Below, one piece after another: positions 11,516-33,566 of a DNA stretch of 33,566 bases. Numbering within the stretch: position 1 is the stretch's first letter; every line of letters starts with the position of its first letter. Below the pieces are notes generated by a model, which did not search any database, was not told where the DNA came from, and saw only the letters and a program-made list of their open reading frames with translations. This DNA is from Candidatus Methanoperedens sp. (GTDB lineage Archaea; Halobacteriota; Methanosarcinia; Methanosarcinales; Methanoperedenaceae). The stretch is taken from positions 1 through 33,566 of the forward strand of contig VEPN01000035.1 of assembly GCA_012026835.1 (NCBI GenBank), written 5' to 3'. The position numbers and the translations under genes are program-made.

Positions 11516-12044
11516 GAAGGTCGTTCCCTCTCCGGGTATGCGAGACTTCAGGATGCCACTGGACACCATAAAGAGGTTTTATTTTATGTTTCATGGCTTC
11601 GATCTCGCATATCCTGGAACGTGCCAGTCTTATGAAATCGGGAGGTAGAACGCTTACCTCATCAGCATGCGATGCCCATACGTTCGTCTTCGGGCCCAAC
11701 CCTTTTAAGATGTCGTCTTCTTCAAGAATCTCTATTTCGACGGCTGCATAACCGCCTGTTGCTCCGGTTCGCACCCTGCCGCCGTAAGTTTTTGCCATTA
11801 CCTGGTGGCCGAGGCAGATGCCAAGGATAGGCAGGTCGAGTTCTTTCACGTAAGCGCTGCAATTGCCTGCACGCTCAAGGGCCGGCCCGCCGCTCAATAT
11901 GAGGCCATCGGGCTCTTGGGATAATACATCTTCCAGGGAAGATGTATTTTTCATGAGCACCGCTTCCTGGTCAAGGTCGCGAACTGCGCGGTGAATCAGG
12001 TGGCAGGTCTGGCCATAGTTGTTGATTACGATGATTTTTAGCAT
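11487..12044 (-). CDS. guaAA: GMP synthase glutaminase subunit A
   Basis: This 185-residue class I glutamine amidotransferase has nucleophile Cys77 in GICLGHQ and the His164/Glu166 pair in [10 protein letters not shown]. It hydrolyses glutamine and passes ammonia to the ATP-pyrophosphatase subunit (GuaAB) to convert XMP to GMP. In archaea the two activities are on separate proteins; the GuaAB gene is not in this window. It is the last gene of the serA - membrane protein - guaAA operon, directly adjacent (0 nt) to the small membrane protein gene. The 3' end overlaps the convergent MFS gene by 29 nt. Confidence 0.95.
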
Positions 12045-14249: not shown

Positions 14250-14955
14250 ATGTTCCGTGTAATTGTTTTGATAATTTTCGAAGCATCCTTGTCAGGATAT
14301 ACATGGAGATAATTGCAAACAGGCCGAATAATGTCTCAATTATTTCACGGATAGAATAGGATACTGTAAAGCCCTGCGTTTCAATCAGCCCGAGGAATTT
14401 CCATGTCAGGGCCAGGTAAGCCGAGAACTGGAAAAACATGAACACTTTCACAAAATCACCCGTGGTGCGCGTCCCAAGCATATATGCCGTATAAATGGTT
14501 ACCAGGCTCCCGATTATCCATGTAATATTCTCTATGGCTCCCATCGCGCTTTTTAGATTTCCGGGATCAGAAATATATAGGTATGACCAGATGACAGGGA
14601 AGATAAGCGCAAGAGCATATGGTATATAAATAATTACTCCGGTAATTCTCCTTCCATGACACAGGATCAAGAATATAAAAAATAATGCAGTAGTCATGAA
14701 TATTGCAGACCATATGCCAAAAATATATCTTATCGATCCTATCAGCGGCTCTTTACTAAGATGCCCCAATTCACGTATCCCGAAAAAAAAGAAAGCAAGG
14801 AACAGGAAAGTCCACGGAGCATCGCCGATATTCCAGATGCGCCTGTTCCTGAAAGCTATGATTACAAGAATAAGTGATATCCACCACATGACATTCGAAA
14901 GGATGACATGCAATCCTATGCTCTCTTCAAGACCGTATGAAGATAAATCAATCAT
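14233..14955 (-). CDS. Seven-helix membrane protein coupled to Roadblock protein
   Basis: The 240-residue integral membrane protein has seven hydrophobic stretches (about 15-35, 47-60, 72-98, 103-127, 142-162, 168-188 and 205-227) and a basic C-terminal tail. The topology suggests a sensor- or rhodopsin-like 7TM fold, but no retinal lysine or other motif could be identified with confidence. Its 3' end overlaps the Roadblock gene, forming a two-gene operon. A signalling role (membrane receptor with LC7 adaptor) is an inference from this pairing. Confidence 0.75.
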   Translation of the reverse strand: MIDLSSYGLEESIGLHVILSNVMWWISLILVIIAFRNRRIWNIGDAPWTFLFLAFFFFGIRELGHLSKEPLIGSIRYIFGIWSAIFMTTALFFIFLILCHGRRITGVIIYIPYALALIFPVIWSYLYISDPGNLKSAMGAIENITWIIGSLVTIYTAYMLGTRTTGDFVKVFMFFQFSAYLALTWKFLGLIETQGFTVSYSIREIIETLFGLFAIISMYILTRMLRKLSKQLHGTYDNKS

Positions 14956-26172: not shown

Positions 26173-26362
26173 CTATGGTTTTAATCCTGCTTCCTGAGCG
26201 ACTTTTAACGTCTCTTCAAAATCATTTTTGGAAACATGGAATTTAGGTTCTATAACGAATACTTTTCCATCCGGCTTTAGGATAGACTTGATTTCCCTGA
26301 AAAATCCCGTTTGATCCGAAACCTCATGAACCATGTAAAAAGCAAGTACAATAAAGATAAAT
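26173..26362 (-). pseudogene. Remnant of a class I methyltransferase gene
   Basis: On the minus strand the DNA encodes FIVLAFYMVHEVSDQTGFF..., SILKPDGKVFVIEPKFHV and SKNDFEETLKVAQEAGLKP before a TAG stop. This is the C-terminal third of a SAM-dependent methyltransferase (post-motif I strand, motif III-like LKPDGKVFVIEP). The N-terminal two thirds, with the SAM-binding loop, are missing, and the end is about ten residues short. No start codon is present. The break near 26345-26362 coincides with the left end of the cassette-like unit described for 26403-26934. Confidence 0.75.
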
Positions 26363-27011: not shown

Positions 27012-27251
27012 TCATTCCATCAATCTAATGAACTCTTCTCTTGTAAATCCGGATTGCTTAATAATCGACATTAAAGTTCCCTTTGGTATGGGATCTCTTT
27101 TTGGGATGATTACGAGATACTTTTCTCCATGACTCCCTGTTCTTACTAAAGCAATATGACTGCCTTTACCCTTAATGGGTGCATAATCAAAACCAGCTTT
27201 AAGGAGACGTTTAATAATCTTATTTGATGGAACAGAAGGAAGTTTGCTCAC
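27012..27251 (-). CDS. hicA: HicA-type toxin
   Basis: The 79-residue protein has the HicA double-stranded-RNA-binding-like fold: SNKIIKRLLKAGFDYAPIKGKGSHIALVR with the conserved His in GSH, and the PIPKGTLMSIIKQSGFTREEF end. HicA cleaves mRNA and is held inactive by HicB. The start is GTG at 27251, overlapping the hicB stop by 4 nt (GTGA), giving the antitoxin-first order. Lies on the left part of the mobile region. Confidence 0.9.
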   Translation of the reverse strand: MSKLPSVPSNKIIKRLLKAGFDYAPIKGKGSHIALVRTGSHGEKYLVIIPKRDPIPKGTLMSIIKQSGFTREEFIRLME

Positions 27252-27493
27252 ACTGCCACGCCAATAGTCGAAGTAAATTTATTTGGGGAATATAAGGATG
27301 CTGCAAAATCATTCAAAATTCCCAGCGCTTTGGCATTCTCAAGATATAATTCAACAGCTTCTTTTAGATTTTCAAGAGCTTCTTCGGGTGTGTCACCCGC
27401 ACTGGCAACTTCAAGTTCAGGGCATTTTGAAACATAAATATCATCTTCCTGCCAGATTATAGCTGTAACATTTAATTTTTCCATACTTTTCAT
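27248..27493 (-). CDS. hicB: HicB-type antitoxin
   Basis: The 81-residue protein matches HicB: the strand NVTAIIWQEDDIYVSKCPELEVASAGDTPEEALENLKEA is the partial RNase H-like fold that binds HicA. There is no obvious DNA-binding helix or Arc-type domain after it, so it is the short form. A start at Met4 (27484) is possible. It is coupled to hicA by a 4-nt overlap. Confidence 0.88.
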   Translation of the reverse strand: MKSMEKLNVTAIIWQEDDIYVSKCPELEVASAGDTPEEALENLKEAVELYLENAKALGILNDFAASLYSPNKFTSTIGVAV

Positions 27494-27652: not shown

Positions 27653-27690
27653 TAGTCACAAACCCCGGATTATAGACTATTGCAGTTACA

Positions 27691-27698
27691 CTTATAAC
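27691..27698 (+). promoter_or_regulatory. TATA-like box for integrase gene
   Basis: CTTATAAC lies 17-24 nt before ATG 27715 and 26-33 nt before ATG 27724. The spacing favours the second ATG as the start of a leaderless message. Confidence 0.4.
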
Positions 27699-27714
27699 CT
27701 TTTATGACAATACG

Positions 27715-28815
27715 ATGTTTGCCATGACTAACTTTGATGAATATCTAAATGAAAAACGATTGAATGGGGTAAAAGAAAACAGCTTGAATACAATTCGTTT
27801 TGTTCTTGAATCAATGGATAAGGTGAAATCACTTGACAAATGCAGCGAGAACGATTTAAAAAAGATAATTGGCAATCTCAAAGTCACTGAAAAGACAGCG
27901 AGTTTATATAAAGTGTATCTCAAGAATTATTTTAGATGGAAGGATGAACCGGATAAGGTCGCGTGGGTAAAATGTAAGAAGATAAAAACACACATCAAAG
28001 AAGATGACCTATTAACCAATGATGAAATAAAAAATATGCTGGCATCTTGTCAAAGTCCAAGAGAACAGGCTTTAATCTCTGTTTTATCTGAGAGTGCTTG
28101 TAGAATCTCCGAATGCCTCAACTTGAATATTGCAGACTTATCTAAAACCGATTACGGTTTTAAAATGAGAATCAGAGACGGTAAAACCGGAAGCCGTGAT
28201 ATAGCTTTAATAAATTCAGTTCCCCATATCATGCAGTGGTTAAACATTCATCCTTTACGAAGTAATGAAGATGCACCGTTATTTATCAATCTTGGAACGC
28301 GGGCACACCATGAACGCATGATAGGAACGGCAGCAAGGAAGCAAATAAGAGAGATCGCAAAGAGAGCAGGAATAAAGCGAAATGTGCATCCTCATCTATT
28401 CAGGCATTCGACATTGACACAGCTTGCAGGCGATGGAATGCAAGAGAGTATCTTAAGGAAGCTTGCAGGATGGGCGGGTAGTTCTGATATGCCAGAGGTC
28501 TATATCCATGTTGGAAATAAGGATGTTGAACAGGCACAATTAGCCAGGCAGGGGAAGGCGTCAATACAGCAGCGTATGTCCCAGAGTCCCTTAACAAAAG
28601 AATGTCCAAACTGTCATAAGGATATGCCAATAGAGGCGCAGTATTGCACCAATTGCAGCAAACATCAGGAATTAACCCCGATTGTTAAGAGATTGCTTGA
28701 GGAACATGAGCAGACCATAGCAGAAATGGAGACCATGAAGGCATTATTTAGCGAAGATACACTTAAAGCGATGATTGAAGCAAGGGTAAACGAAATATTA
28801 TTGAAATCAAAATAA
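27715..28815 (+). CDS. Tyrosine recombinase/integrase with C-terminal zinc ribbon
   Basis: The protein (366 residues from 27715, or 363 from ATG 27724) has an N-terminal SAM-like core-binding domain (about 5-85) and a catalytic domain with the full set: Arg130 (ACR-ISE), Lys157 (DGKTG), His227-x2-Arg230 (HLFRHS), Trp253 in GWAG at the H/W position, and nucleophile Tyr263 (EVYIHV). After the catalytic domain is a zinc ribbon, C297-x2-C300 and C311-x2-C314, and then a helical tail. This is the XerC/D-like archaeal type. It marks the surrounding AT-rich region as a mobile or formerly mobile element. No tRNA target or clear att repeats were found near it. Confidence 0.92.
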   Translation: MFAMTNFDEYLNEKRLNGVKENSLNTIRFVLESMDKVKSLDKCSENDLKKIIGNLKVTEKTASLYKVYLKNYFRWKDEPDKVAWVKCKKIKTHIKEDDLLTNDEIKNMLASCQSPREQALISVLSESACRISECLNLNIADLSKTDYGFKMRIRDGKTGSRDIALINSVPHIMQWLNIHPLRSNEDAPLFINLGTRAHHERMIGTAARKQIREIAKRAGIKRNVHPHLFRHSTLTQLAGDGMQESILRKLAGWAGSSDMPEVYIHVGNKDVEQAQLARQGKASIQQRMSQSPLTKECPNCHKDMPIEAQYCTNCSKHQELTPIVKRLLEEHEQTIAEMETMKALFSEDTLKAMIEARVNEILLKSK

Positions 28816-28865
28816 GTCAAAATAGGGTATATTTTATCCCACTTTAATGAAATATTATCCTATCT

Positions 28866-29099
28866 ATGAAGAATAAAAGGAAATATTGTCCTATTTGTGG
28901 CAGAAAAGGATTGAGAAAAGACGGAATGCTAAGATTTATGCAACTTTATGAGTGCAAATACTGCGAATCTAAAACCGTTTATCCTAAAATCAGAAAGAAA
29001 AGCATCCCACATGCAACACCTTTATTCCTGAAATTAATTTTTCAGAGTTATTTAAATGCAATGAATCTTCAAAATAATCGATACGAAAAAATTTACTAA
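28866..29099 (+). CDS. Zinc-ribbon protein
   Basis: The 77-residue protein begins with a zinc ribbon (YCPICGRKG, then ECKYCESK) like those in transposase-associated or IS1-type N-terminal regions, and continues in a basic and then hydrophobic stretch. It is downstream of the recombinase by 50 nt on the same strand and may be a helper or regulator. No enzymatic motif was seen. Confidence 0.6.
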   Translation: MKNKRKYCPICGRKGLRKDGMLRFMQLYECKYCESKTVYPKIRKKSIPHATPLFLKLIFQSYLNAMNLQNNRYEKIY

Positions 29100-29116
29100 C
29101 CCTTTGTTCGTTTTCT

Positions 29117-29264
29117 TGTGATACATGTGATACAATATCACAATTAACCTCTCCATAATGAAAATGATGTATCACAATAATGCAACATATATATTATATC
29201 CTTTATTGTGATATTGTATCACAATAATGATTAATTTATATATGTATGACAATAATATCATACA
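29117..29264. repeat. Iteron-like cluster of TTGTGATA palindromes
   Basis: Related sites are packed into about 150 bp. TGTGATACA is repeated in tandem at 29117-29125 and 29126-29134, the second forming TGTGATA-CAA-TATCACA (29126-29142). TGTATCACAATAATG occurs at 29168-29182 and again at 29215-29229. An 11-bp-arm palindrome, TTATTGTGATA-TTG-TATCACAATAA, spans 29203-29227. A variant, TGTATGA...TCATACA, spans 29243-29264. The cluster lies between convergent genes, where a promoter operator is unlikely, so an element replication origin or partition site is suggested. Confidence 0.75.
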
Positions 29265-29274
29265 ACATATTATT

Positions 29275-29580
29275 TTAAGTTATCGGTTTGTCCCCCTTTT
29301 TCACCTCATCACTTTCCATTTTATCTTTTTGATTTTGAAGAGCAAAGACGTATGCCATCTTAATTATTCTTCTGAGCAGCATGCTGTTATTGTTATAATC
29401 TGTATCCGGATCAACTTCCGTTAAGTGCTTCCGGATAAAGTCTATATAATTCCACTCATCTTCACCGTATCTGAAAGACTCCATATAGGGTGTGTTATTA
29501 TCGGAGGCTTTTCGTGTCCTTCCCCTTCGTTCAATCCTCTTATTACTTGACCAATGAGAAGCCCCATAATCATTTGTCAT
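29275..29580 (-). CDS. Hypothetical protein of element operon
   Basis: The 101-residue protein is hydrophilic, with a basic Arg-rich N-terminal part (KRIERRGRTRK) and a helical middle (SMLLRRIIKMAYVFAL). No family is recognised. It may bind DNA. Its start overlaps the upstream frame by 11 nt (ATGACAAATGA), making it the last gene of a three-gene operon. Confidence 0.55.
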   Translation of the reverse strand: MTNDYGASHWSSNKRIERRGRTRKASDNNTPYMESFRYGEDEWNYIDFIRKHLTEVDPDTDYNNNSMLLRRIIKMAYVFALQNQKDKMESDEVKKGDKPIT

Positions 29581-29683
29581 ATCTATCCCCTCTTTCTTTA
29601 GCTATCCTCTGAGCCTCAGTTTCAATATATTTCAGTATTTCAGAAAGAGAAGGTTTTTTATCCAGAAACTCCTTAATACTCAT
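29570..29683 (-). CDS. Small hypothetical protein (37 aa) in element operon
   Basis: MSIKEFLDKKPSLSEILKYI... starts at 29683, overlapping the stop of the VapB-like gene by 11 nt (ATGAGTATTAA), and ends overlapping the next start by 11 nt. A longer frame back to 29782 would run through the antitoxin gene and is rejected. Function is unknown; the product is a charged helix. Confidence 0.45.
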   Translation of the reverse strand: MSIKEFLDKKPSLSEILKYIETEAQRIAKERGDRYDK

Positions 29684-29879
29684 GGCTGGCACAATCCTTG
29701 AGATTTTGTTGGCTTGCGTCAGTTTGAAGCTTGTCGGTTTCATGGGCTGGCGCAATACCTTTATTTCTATCGACCTCATCACAAAGACGAGTTATAACAT
29801 CGCTGAATGATGAATTCTCATCTTTCATAGCTTTGAGCCGTTCATAAACAACATTTCTTATTTGCAGCATTTTGCTCAT
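29673..29879 (-). CDS. VapB-like antitoxin, orphan
   Basis: The 68-residue protein opens with QIRNVVYERLKAMKDENSSFSDVITRLCDEV, the pattern of archaeal VapB antitoxins (UPF0330/DUF217): a short strand, a helix, and the ESFSDV-type turn. The C-terminal half is polar and unlike a typical antitoxin tail. No PIN-domain toxin is adjacent; the downstream frames overlap by 11 nt but do not resemble PIN. It may be the DNA-binding regulator of this operon. Confidence 0.7.
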   Translation of the reverse strand: MSKMLQIRNVVYERLKAMKDENSSFSDVITRLCDEVDRNKGIAPAHETDKLQTDASQQNLKDCASHEY

Positions 29880-29894
29880 TTTTTCTTCTCCATT

Positions 29895-29906
29895 GTTTAT
29901 GTAAAC
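29895..29906. promoter_or_regulatory. Possible operator between divergent genes
   Basis: GTTTA-TG-TAAAC is a short dyad in the 53-bp gap between the VapB-like gene and the divergent gene at 29933. The location fits autoregulation by the VapB-like protein, but the arms are only 5 bp long. Confidence 0.3.
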
Positions 29907-29932
29907 GATTTAAGTATCATGAGTATAATAAG

Positions 29933-30469
29933 ATGGATGAACTTGGCATGATATTTTTAAAAAAAGTAGATAAAGTAAGACCTGATATCGATACTGAGAT
30001 ACGCAAGCTTATTAAAATGGAATTACGCTTATATTTTTCATTTTTACGAGAAATCCCTTTCAGTCGCAGTTCTGAAATAGGATTATTAGTAGGATATTAT
30101 CAGAGTTTTTTAAATAATATCTTTGATAAACCTCATACTTTGAAAGAAATTAAAGCAATCATCCAATATGATGGAAATGAAAAAGCGTTCAGGAAAGAAA
30201 TAAAAATATTATTTGATGAAACAATACCACCAAGAAAAAGATATGAACGGGGAAGATGGTATCGATTAAAGGACACGAATAGATTGGAAAGGGAAGCAAA
30301 TGAGATAAGGCAAAGATATGAAGCTGAAGCAAGAGGTAAATTTAAATTAAAATTTGGATTCGAGACCGAGAGTATAGAAAAAATAATAAAACAGTTAATT
30401 GAAAATGGCGAAGTTAAAGTACCTACTGAAGAAGAGTTCAAAGCACAGTTTGTTAAAATTTTTACCTAA
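29933..30469 (+). CDS. Hypothetical helical protein
   Basis: The 178-residue protein is predicted to be mostly helical and basic, with many Arg/Lys/Glu residues (EANEIRQRYEAEARGKFKLKF) and no recognised motif. It is AT-rich and divergent from the three-gene operon. Two hairpins follow its stop codon. Possibly a DNA-binding or replication accessory protein of the element; this is a guess. Confidence 0.6.
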   Translation: MDELGMIFLKKVDKVRPDIDTEIRKLIKMELRLYFSFLREIPFSRSSEIGLLVGYYQSFLNNIFDKPHTLKEIKAIIQYDGNEKAFRKEIKILFDETIPPRKRYERGRWYRLKDTNRLEREANEIRQRYEAEARGKFKLKFGFETESIEKIIKQLIENGEVKVPTEEEFKAQFVKIFT

Positions 30470-30493
30470 TGAGGCACATAAAAAAAGCCTCAT
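30469..30493 (+). terminator. Hairpin directly after the stop codon
   Basis: ATGAGGC (30469-30475) and GCCTCAT (30487-30493) form a 7-bp stem with an 11-nt A-rich loop. The position suits a transcript-end or mRNA-stabilising structure. No T run follows. Confidence 0.45.
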
Positions 30494-30520
30494 AAATGCG
30501 ATATGGGGCGTTATCTCGAA

Positions 30521-30546
30521 TTGGTCAATGGTCTCCTATTGGCCAA
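30521..30546. other. Imperfect inverted repeat
   Basis: TTGGTCAATGG (30521-30531) and CCTATTGGCCAA (30535-30546) pair with one mismatch and one bulge. It lies in the 211-bp gap after the 178-residue protein gene, which otherwise holds nothing recognisable. Confidence 0.45.
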
Positions 30547-30680
30547 GGTGAAGCGGGAAAATTGAATATATCAAAAATTATATGCACTTTCACCCAAGAC
30601 AGACTTTTTTTATTTTTTTTAATGATTAGGTGCAAATAACATCAAAAAGTATTAATAGTGCCATTCCTTAATGACGATGC

Positions 30681-31016
30681 ATGACTTATGAAGACGATTT
30701 TAAGAAGAATCTTACAGAATTAAAGATGGGGGCAGAGTTAACAACTTATACGAACAAAAAAAGTGAGATATCTAAAATAACAACTAAAGAGATAGTAATA
30801 TATATTCAGAAGTCTAAGAAAAAAAGAAACATAGAAATCGCTGACATTGAAAAAGCCTATATCAATTTACGTGAAGGTAATAACATTGAAAGTATAAAAG
30901 AATCCATTGAAAGTATTATTGGAGATAAAAAATGGATTTATTCTTACGTTTGGGCTATTCTAAGCAATTTCAAGGATATTGAAACAAAAGGCAAACAACT
31001 ATCTTATAAATATTAA
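30681..31016 (+). CDS. Hypothetical protein
   Basis: The 111-residue basic protein has a Lys-rich strand-turn region (IQKSKKKRNIEIADIEKAYINL) and a helical C-terminus. No family is recognised. The AT-rich codons match its neighbours in the mobile region. It is the last gene before the long non-coding interval preceding lysA. Confidence 0.5.
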   Translation: MTYEDDFKKNLTELKMGAELTTYTNKKSEISKITTKEIVIYIQKSKKKRNIEIADIEKAYINLREGNNIESIKESIESIIGDKKWIYSYVWAILSNFKDIETKGKQLSYKY

Positions 31017-31341
31017 CTACCCTCAGATATATACGTAATAAAATAATAATCCTGACCTCAGTTTCAGGTTGTTTTTAGTTCAATCTTATTAAAAGTGTTG
31101 CACATAAATATAATTAACAACATAAATTCAAGTTCAATTTATGTTGGTAAATAAAAAATTAGATGATAAAACTGGATAAGGGTAACTTCAATTATCCATA
31201 ACCCCGGACTTAAGGCCGTGGCCTGTAGATAGCGTTTTTGGCATGATGCACATCCTGCGTTCCAATGTATTTACTGACAACATTCCATCCATTTCCCAAA
31301 GACCCATGGAAACAGCCTTGCGTTCATCATAATATTCACTC
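31017..31341. other. Non-coding interval at right end of island
   Basis: No credible gene is seen in these 325 nt. It holds a weak hairpin CCTGA/TCAGG (31051-31068) followed by a T-rich run, a perfect 11-bp stem with a 7-nt loop (31118-31146), and the dyad AGGCC-GT-GGCCT (31213-31224). AACCCCGGA (from 31200) is shared with 27661 near the integrase, too short to be called an att site. Confidence 0.5.
31118..31146. other. Perfect 11-bp stem-loop
   Basis: CAACATAAATT (31118-31128) and AATTTATGTTG (31136-31146) are exact reverse complements with the loop CAAGTTC. The low GC content makes an RNA terminator weak; a DNA recognition site is as likely. Confidence 0.6.
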
Positions 31342-33407: not shown

Positions 33408-33566
33408 ATTGGAGATGGTTATAAGTCGTGGTGGTAGTTTGGTAAGGATGCAATATCTTTCTTTAATCCCTAATTTGACAGAAACACAAATTTTATAATG
33501 ATAAAATAGACCTACCATAACTGTTTACCAAATAAGCTATGTATTATATAAATCTATAAATACGTA

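Follow-up and report, generated by a model that had tools for sequence, protein, structure and literature searches.

A cluster of short repeats in the window, i.e. the whole 33,566-nucleotide stretch of Candidatus Methanoperedens DNA analyzed here, may well be a cis-acting replication or maintenance site (an origin or a set of incompatibility iterons) of a small plasmid-like integrative element. This reading is favored because the clusters found in related elements lie 3′ of a replication gene and because the origin of the plasmid pRN1 occupies the same place.

A Cluster of Mixed-orientation Repeats between Convergent Genes

The following sites, none of which has an assigned strand, were delimited in the intergenic DNA.

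29116 to 29252: repeat cluster with half-sites in both orientations, a candidate for an origin/iteron site or for a cis-acting site that binds protein in some other role
29203 to 29227: best palindrome, TTATTGTGATA-TTG-TATCACAATAA, with perfect 11-bp arms and a 3-bp center
29116 to 29143: second site, a direct repeat (9-bp spacing) plus an inverted copy, TTGTGATACATGTGATACAATATCACAA

The cluster spans 137 bases and holds seven half-sites of the form TTGTGATAC in both orientations, at 29116+, 29125+, 29135−, 29169−, 29206+, 29216−, and 29244−, where a copy was counted if it carried at most one mismatch and the complement was included. Five of the seven are exact 8-mers (TTGTGATA or its complement TATCACAA). 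Within the second site, a further palindrome with one mismatch, ATGTGATA-CAA-TATCACAA, is present at 29125–29143; the two cluster palindromes match each other in inverted orientation (pair I2), and two half-sites, at 29169 and 29244, stand alone. The original prediction had described five to six palindrome copies or half-copies in 150 bp of AT-rich DNA between convergent genes, the best copy having perfect 11-bp arms. The best copy was recovered as described, and the surroundings also agree, the cluster DNA being 24% GC and flanked by convergent genes at 28866–29099 (+) and 29275–29580 (−). The repeats themselves are real and exceed those of shuffled DNA, but they are better described as one half-site occurring in both orientations over 29116–29252.

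In none of 5000 dinucleotide shuffles of 29100–29275 was any 8-mer present five times, the maximum being 4 (in 20 shuffles), and counting of the 9-mer at one mismatch gave 7 copies in the cluster, whereas the highest count among 150 shuffles was 5. Across the 33.6-kb window, this was the sole mixed-orientation 8-mer cluster. The full palindrome (up to two mismatches) was not clustered elsewhere in the 3.32-Mb genome, and comparison of the cluster DNA with 30 other genomes of the genus returned the window itself and a weak 36-bp match in one genome (G015) but no convincing relative. An Rfam search gave no hit.

The predicted single-stranded DNA fold of the cluster is far stronger than those of shuffled sequences (z of −5.4), which is consistent with either a protein-bound array of palindromes or a stem-loop origin. 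Because the 8-mer recurs without an adjoining hairpin partner (29170 and 29116), the arrangement would fit protein binding. Only 22 bp separate the stop codon of the minus-strand gene at 29275–29580 (P101) from the near edge of the cluster, and the structured site thus lies directly 3′ of the operon to which this gene belongs.

The Cluster Lies within an Integrated Element

Comparison of junctions with empty sites in congeners placed the cluster inside an integrated element with the following ends.

27661 to 31208 (both att cores included), no strand: integrated mobile element
27661 to 27669, no strand: attL core AACCCCGGA; AGTCACA stands before it here and in the empty sites
31111 to 31153, no strand: palindrome near the right end, in common with the related element L075 (1021–1057)
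31200 to 31208, no strand: attR core AACCCCGGA; the 3′ end of a tnpA of the IS200 type (31200–31322) follows
Joined element ends: predicted attP junction, ..CCATAACCCCGGATTATAG..

On the basis of these junctions, the element has a core-to-core length of 3,539 bp (27661–31199). An empty allele of exactly this locus was not found, so that its ends were placed by means of target copies elsewhere. The left junction falls between AGTCACAAACCCCGGA and TTATAGACTATTGCAGTTAC, and the same start point was observed in L038, L039/L075, and L040. The right junction (..GTAACTTCAATTATCCATAACCCCGGACTTAAGG) abuts a 120-bp chromosomal repeat, which in congener empty sites runs on uninterrupted from CAGTCACAAACCCCGGACTTAAG. 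This target repeat consists of the 3′-terminal part of a tnpA gene of the IS200 type (PF01797, 1.6e-28 for the copy tested) and was matched in 24 of 31 genomes. The element is 33.7% GC as compared with 43.5–44.2% for its flanks. The element has an apparently intact PF00589 integrase gene, an att core directly repeated at its two ends, and a corresponding empty site, so that the mobile island originally proposed can now be defined as an integrated element by its att cores and the congener empty sites.

An arm-like word is common to both element ends (left TTGCAGTTACACTTATA, right TTGAAGTTACCCTTATCC in complement), and similar words occur in L075. The right-end palindrome is likewise kept in these two elements, the contents of which otherwise differ. 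The target of the integrase family is the multi-copy 3′ end of IS200-type tnpA (window 31200–31322; L076–L087 and L092–L094), and its position on a multi-copy insertion sequence offers the element many landing sites.

Several features lie outside the element. A HicA toxin gene (PF07927) paired with a HicB-like gene (27012–27493, −) is found just beyond the left end. A stretch of 178 bp at 26174–26351 is 100% identical to C58:6886–7063 of the same genome, reflecting a recent duplication or a shared mobile fragment. The last 99 bp of the window (33468–33566) are identical to C75 1–99 and C85 11936–12034, which suggests that the contig of the window ends in a repeat.

Genes of the Element

The element carries the following genes.

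27715 to 28815, plus strand: tyrosine recombinase with a C-terminal zinc ribbon, apparently intact (PF00589, 6e-20)
28866 to 29099, plus strand: ORF directed toward the cluster, with a weak zinc-ribbon match (below cut-off, to an IS1-like N-terminal zinc finger)
29275 to 29580, minus strand: P101, a 101-amino acid orphan protein in the place of the ∼100–120-amino acid protein that precedes the replication gene in relatives
29570 to 29683, minus strand: MID microprotein of 37 amino acids, counted from a conserved ATG (MSIKEFLDKKPSLSEILKYIETEAQRIAKERGDRYDK); its reading frame overlaps the stop codon of the VapB gene
29673 to 29879, minus strand: VapB-family protein, first gene of the operon (PF02697, 2.3e-10), with no recognizable toxin partner
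29933 to 30469, plus strand: 178-amino acid orphan protein, divergent from the operon, with no relatives in the genus and no family
30681 to 31016, plus strand: 111-amino acid orphan protein with no match to a replication family

The integrase, which bears out the recombinase reported earlier at 0.3 kb from the cluster, retains conserved CRISE, HxFRH, and Y motifs and has homologues of 70–77% identity in Candidatus Methanoperedens congeners. The minus-strand operon is ordered VapB-like, MID, P101, and its genes overlap at stop and start codons. The PF02697 match of the VapB-like protein is confined to residues 4–41, and a PIN-domain (VapC) toxin was not found among the neighbors of its gene. 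Assignment as a VapBC toxin-antitoxin operon was rejected for want of this toxin. The earlier description of an orphan antitoxin-like operon is upheld as regards a VapB-family first gene lacking a toxin; DNA binding by the small proteins is probable.

None of the element proteins matched a replication family. A homologue of the Rep of L039 was not found in the window, nor a PF23343 Rep in the whole genome, nor a ParA/SegA ATPase among the element ORFs. Searches of viral contigs with the integrase and Rep proteins gave nothing close. Full-length relatives of P101 were absent from the PDB, viral contigs, and 238 genomes of the class; the most that was obtained was a short N-terminal match (NDYGASHWSS), from another contig of Methanoperedens, and a weak one of 31% in G028. 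AlphaFold models of P101 and the 178-amino acid protein gave mean pLDDT values of 58 and 47, respectively, too poor for a fold search. Two helices are predicted with low confidence in the P101 model, and a ribbon-helix-helix fold for this protein is a guess from those two helices.

Related Elements in Methanoperedens Are Marked by MID

The MID microprotein (consensus MSIKEFLxKKPSLSEILxFVExEAQRIAxERK) was detected in 9 of 186 genomes of the order, that of the window included, and all nine are Methanoperedens; the match in L044 is weaker. This ∼40-amino acid protein (MSIKEFLDKKPSLSEILKYIETEAQRIAKERG...) is encoded at 29570–29683 (−) in the window and at L039, L044, and L057–L064, and was found in no other genus among the 186 genomes. 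MID is a hallmark of a Methanoperedens family of related integrated elements. Within the stretches fetched around each MID locus, a recombinase related to that of the window was present near MID in seven of the eight other genomes (L057, L058, L060, L061, L063, L064, and, in G022, L039/L075). L062 has a more distant tyrosine recombinase (judged by eye), and none was seen in the 9.4 kb of L059, a second locus in G022.

Several of these relatives carry a replication gene, which encodes an HUH Rep, a PrimPol, or an MCM. L058 encodes an HUH Rep (PF23343, 2e-10), as does L061 with a match below the curated cut-off (PF23343, 1.4e-5). L039/L075 encodes a Rep with an HUH motif that is similar to a protein of the haloarchaeal plasmid pSCM201 (1e-7). 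The replication gene is a PrimPol in L062 and an MCM in L063. L075 has the same att core as the window element, in addition to the right-end palindrome noted above. The complete order in L039/L075 is repressor-type gene, MID, ∼100-amino acid protein, replication gene, and repeat cluster, which the window element matches, minus the replication gene, with VapB-like, MID, P101, and cluster.

Repeat clusters were observed in three relatives. Immediately 3′ of its Rep gene, L075 contains seven copies of CAACGGACA, most of them spaced 11 bp apart (0 of 150 shuffles). Five copies of GTGTTTTAG at 10–11-bp spacing lie 3′ of PrimPol in L062 and five of TTATGTAAC lie 3′ of MCM in L063 (1 of 150 shuffles in each case, a significance that is overstated because these two stretches were picked after scanning). 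The repeat sequences differ among L075, L062, L063, and the window element, a look that is expected of replicon-specific iterons. No cluster above chance was found in the regions tested of L057, L058, L059, L060, and L064, and none was present near L038 and L040, the closest integrase relatives. In pSCM201, the Rep-like gene is not followed on its 3′ side by a comparable cluster of repeats. The repeats in L064 (AAGCGAAAT), which lie inside an ORF, were left out of the iteron count, and those of L058 were not above chance by 9-mer count.

Two other repeat arrangements were seen in the relatives. The element with the MCM gene, L063, has two arrays of GC-richer TTCTGTCCT repeats in mixed orientation (11644–11834 and 14711–14881), and five 24-bp direct tandem repeats (GGGGTAACAGTTAGACCTGA...) lie beside the integrase gene in L045 (5398–5510).

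Comparison with Known Replicons

The minimal replicon of pRN1 from Sulfolobus consists of a repressor-rep operon and a stem-loop of ∼100 nucleotides just 3′ of it that is needed for replication (PMC4234260). The window element resembles pRN1 in being small, in having an operon led by a small repressor-type gene (the PF02697 protein, as assigned by sequence) with a structured palindromic site just 3′ of it, and in having integrated relatives. The likeness is positional rather than one of sequence, the pRN1 site being one large stem-loop and the window site a set of repeated 8-mers. The structured site of pRN1 is essential (PMC4234260), and pRN1 encodes the PrimPol-helicase Orf904, which the window element lacks; among its relatives, a PrimPol is found in L062 only.

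As in iteron-type plasmid origins (PMC4980987), copies of a single short motif are grouped in AT-rich DNA, here in a number beyond chance. However, classical iterons are direct repeats that adjoin the gene for their cognate initiator (PMC4980987), whereas the window repeats are of mixed orientation and no recognized initiator gene adjoins them. The methanosarcinal plasmid pC2A/pWM321 of Methanosarcina encodes an HUH RepA, and its non-coding region contains repeats of both direct and inverted type (PMC9569500); HUH Reps are encoded by related Methanoperedens elements but not by that of the window, and the repeats are likened by description. HMp plasmids come from the same host genus and have a predicted origin with repeats in AT-rich DNA, but they are 155–192 kb in size with Orc1/Cdc6 beside the origin (PMC9674854), in contrast to an integrated element of 3.5 kb without Orc1/Cdc6.

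Function of the Cluster

The main rival to a replication or maintenance site is an operator, in which an element repressor (the VapB-like protein or P101) would bind the cluster and control a promoter within it, e.g. an antisense promoter at the TATA-like octamer TTTATATA at 29235 that reads into the P101-MID-VapB operon. Repeated palindromic half-sites, a VapB-family gene in the same element, and the proximity of the octamer to the best palindrome would all suit such a role. It is nevertheless a doubtful one: both flanking genes face the cluster with their 3′ ends, and hence no sense gene begins there; the operon promoter region (29880–29935) holds just two weak matches to the motif (two mismatches); and TATA-like words are expected in DNA of 24% GC. 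A genome-wide operator was rejected, as the palindrome is not clustered elsewhere in the genome. Loading of P101 or the VapB-like protein on the array as on a centromere, with segregation of the excised element, is quite unlikely. Clustered sites do adjoin genes for small, probably DNA-binding proteins, but a centromere would need a ParA/SegA-type ATPase, which is missing from the element genes, and the ribbon-helix-helix fold of P101 is a low-confidence guess.

Two further readings fit poorly. Strong hairpins between convergent genes could suggest terminators or RNA hairpins for those genes, yet no T-run follows any stem, a search gave no terminator-like site, and the same 8-mer at every site, unpaired half-sites included, would be needless for hairpins alone; this reading is very unlikely, and the terminator was rejected for the missing T-run. 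That the cluster serves the integrase of the element, as a set of accessory or recombination sites, is most improbable. The short distance to the integrase gene (0.3 kb) and the mutual inversion of the two palindromes would fit, but the att cores at 27661 and 31200 lie 1.5–2 kb from the cluster, and the element ends carry different arm-like words and lack the cluster motif. Integrase arm sites were rejected on these grounds, i.e. the wrong place and the different words at the ends.

The replication or maintenance reading is supported by repeats that exceed chance and that genome and genus searches found in this element alone. Against it stand the lack of an initiator in the element and of a PF23343 Rep in the genome, the absence of full-length relatives and the poor model for P101, and the five related elements with no significant cluster, together with L038 and L040. 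The layout of an origin or partition site proposed originally thus gains from the mobile element, from a microprotein that often precedes replication genes in relatives, from iteron-like clusters in three of them, and from the position of the pRN1 site, but it loses from the want of a recognizable initiator here.

As a replication or maintenance site, the cluster could operate as follows. The tyrosine recombinase of a small plasmid-like element would insert that element into the chromosome, and on excision a circle would form. A protein would bind the 8–9-bp half-sites, TTGTGATA(C), set as palindromes and direct repeats, and in the excised circle the bound cluster may mark and help to open the flanking AT-rich DNA or may count copies. 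The element, in which P101 appears to stand in the place of the ∼100-amino acid protein preceding Rep in relatives, would have lost, or never had, a Rep of its own. The likeliest reason why no initiator is recognizable would be that Rep has been deleted from the element or that the element is a satellite derivative. Alternatively, and this is unlikely, the VapB-MID-P101 operon and the TTGTGATA array would form a complete minimal maintenance module without a recognizable Rep, with P101 or the protein of a helper element binding the array and recruiting host replication proteins.

Significance

Methanoperedens archaea consume methane and are hosts to Borgs and large plasmids. Small integrative elements whose replication modules are swappable appear to be almost undescribed in these organisms; no account of them was found in the open-access papers searched, which is weak evidence of novelty. 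The rarest aspect is the element family, with its interchangeable replication modules and common microprotein, and not the cluster. A maintenance module without a recognizable Rep, if real, would make the 3.5-kb element either a satellite in archaea or a replicon that uses a new type of initiator. We know of no small vectors for Methanoperedens. Should the clusters be origins, such vectors could naturally be developed from them, and the conserved ∼40-amino acid MID would be a handle for finding further elements of this kind.
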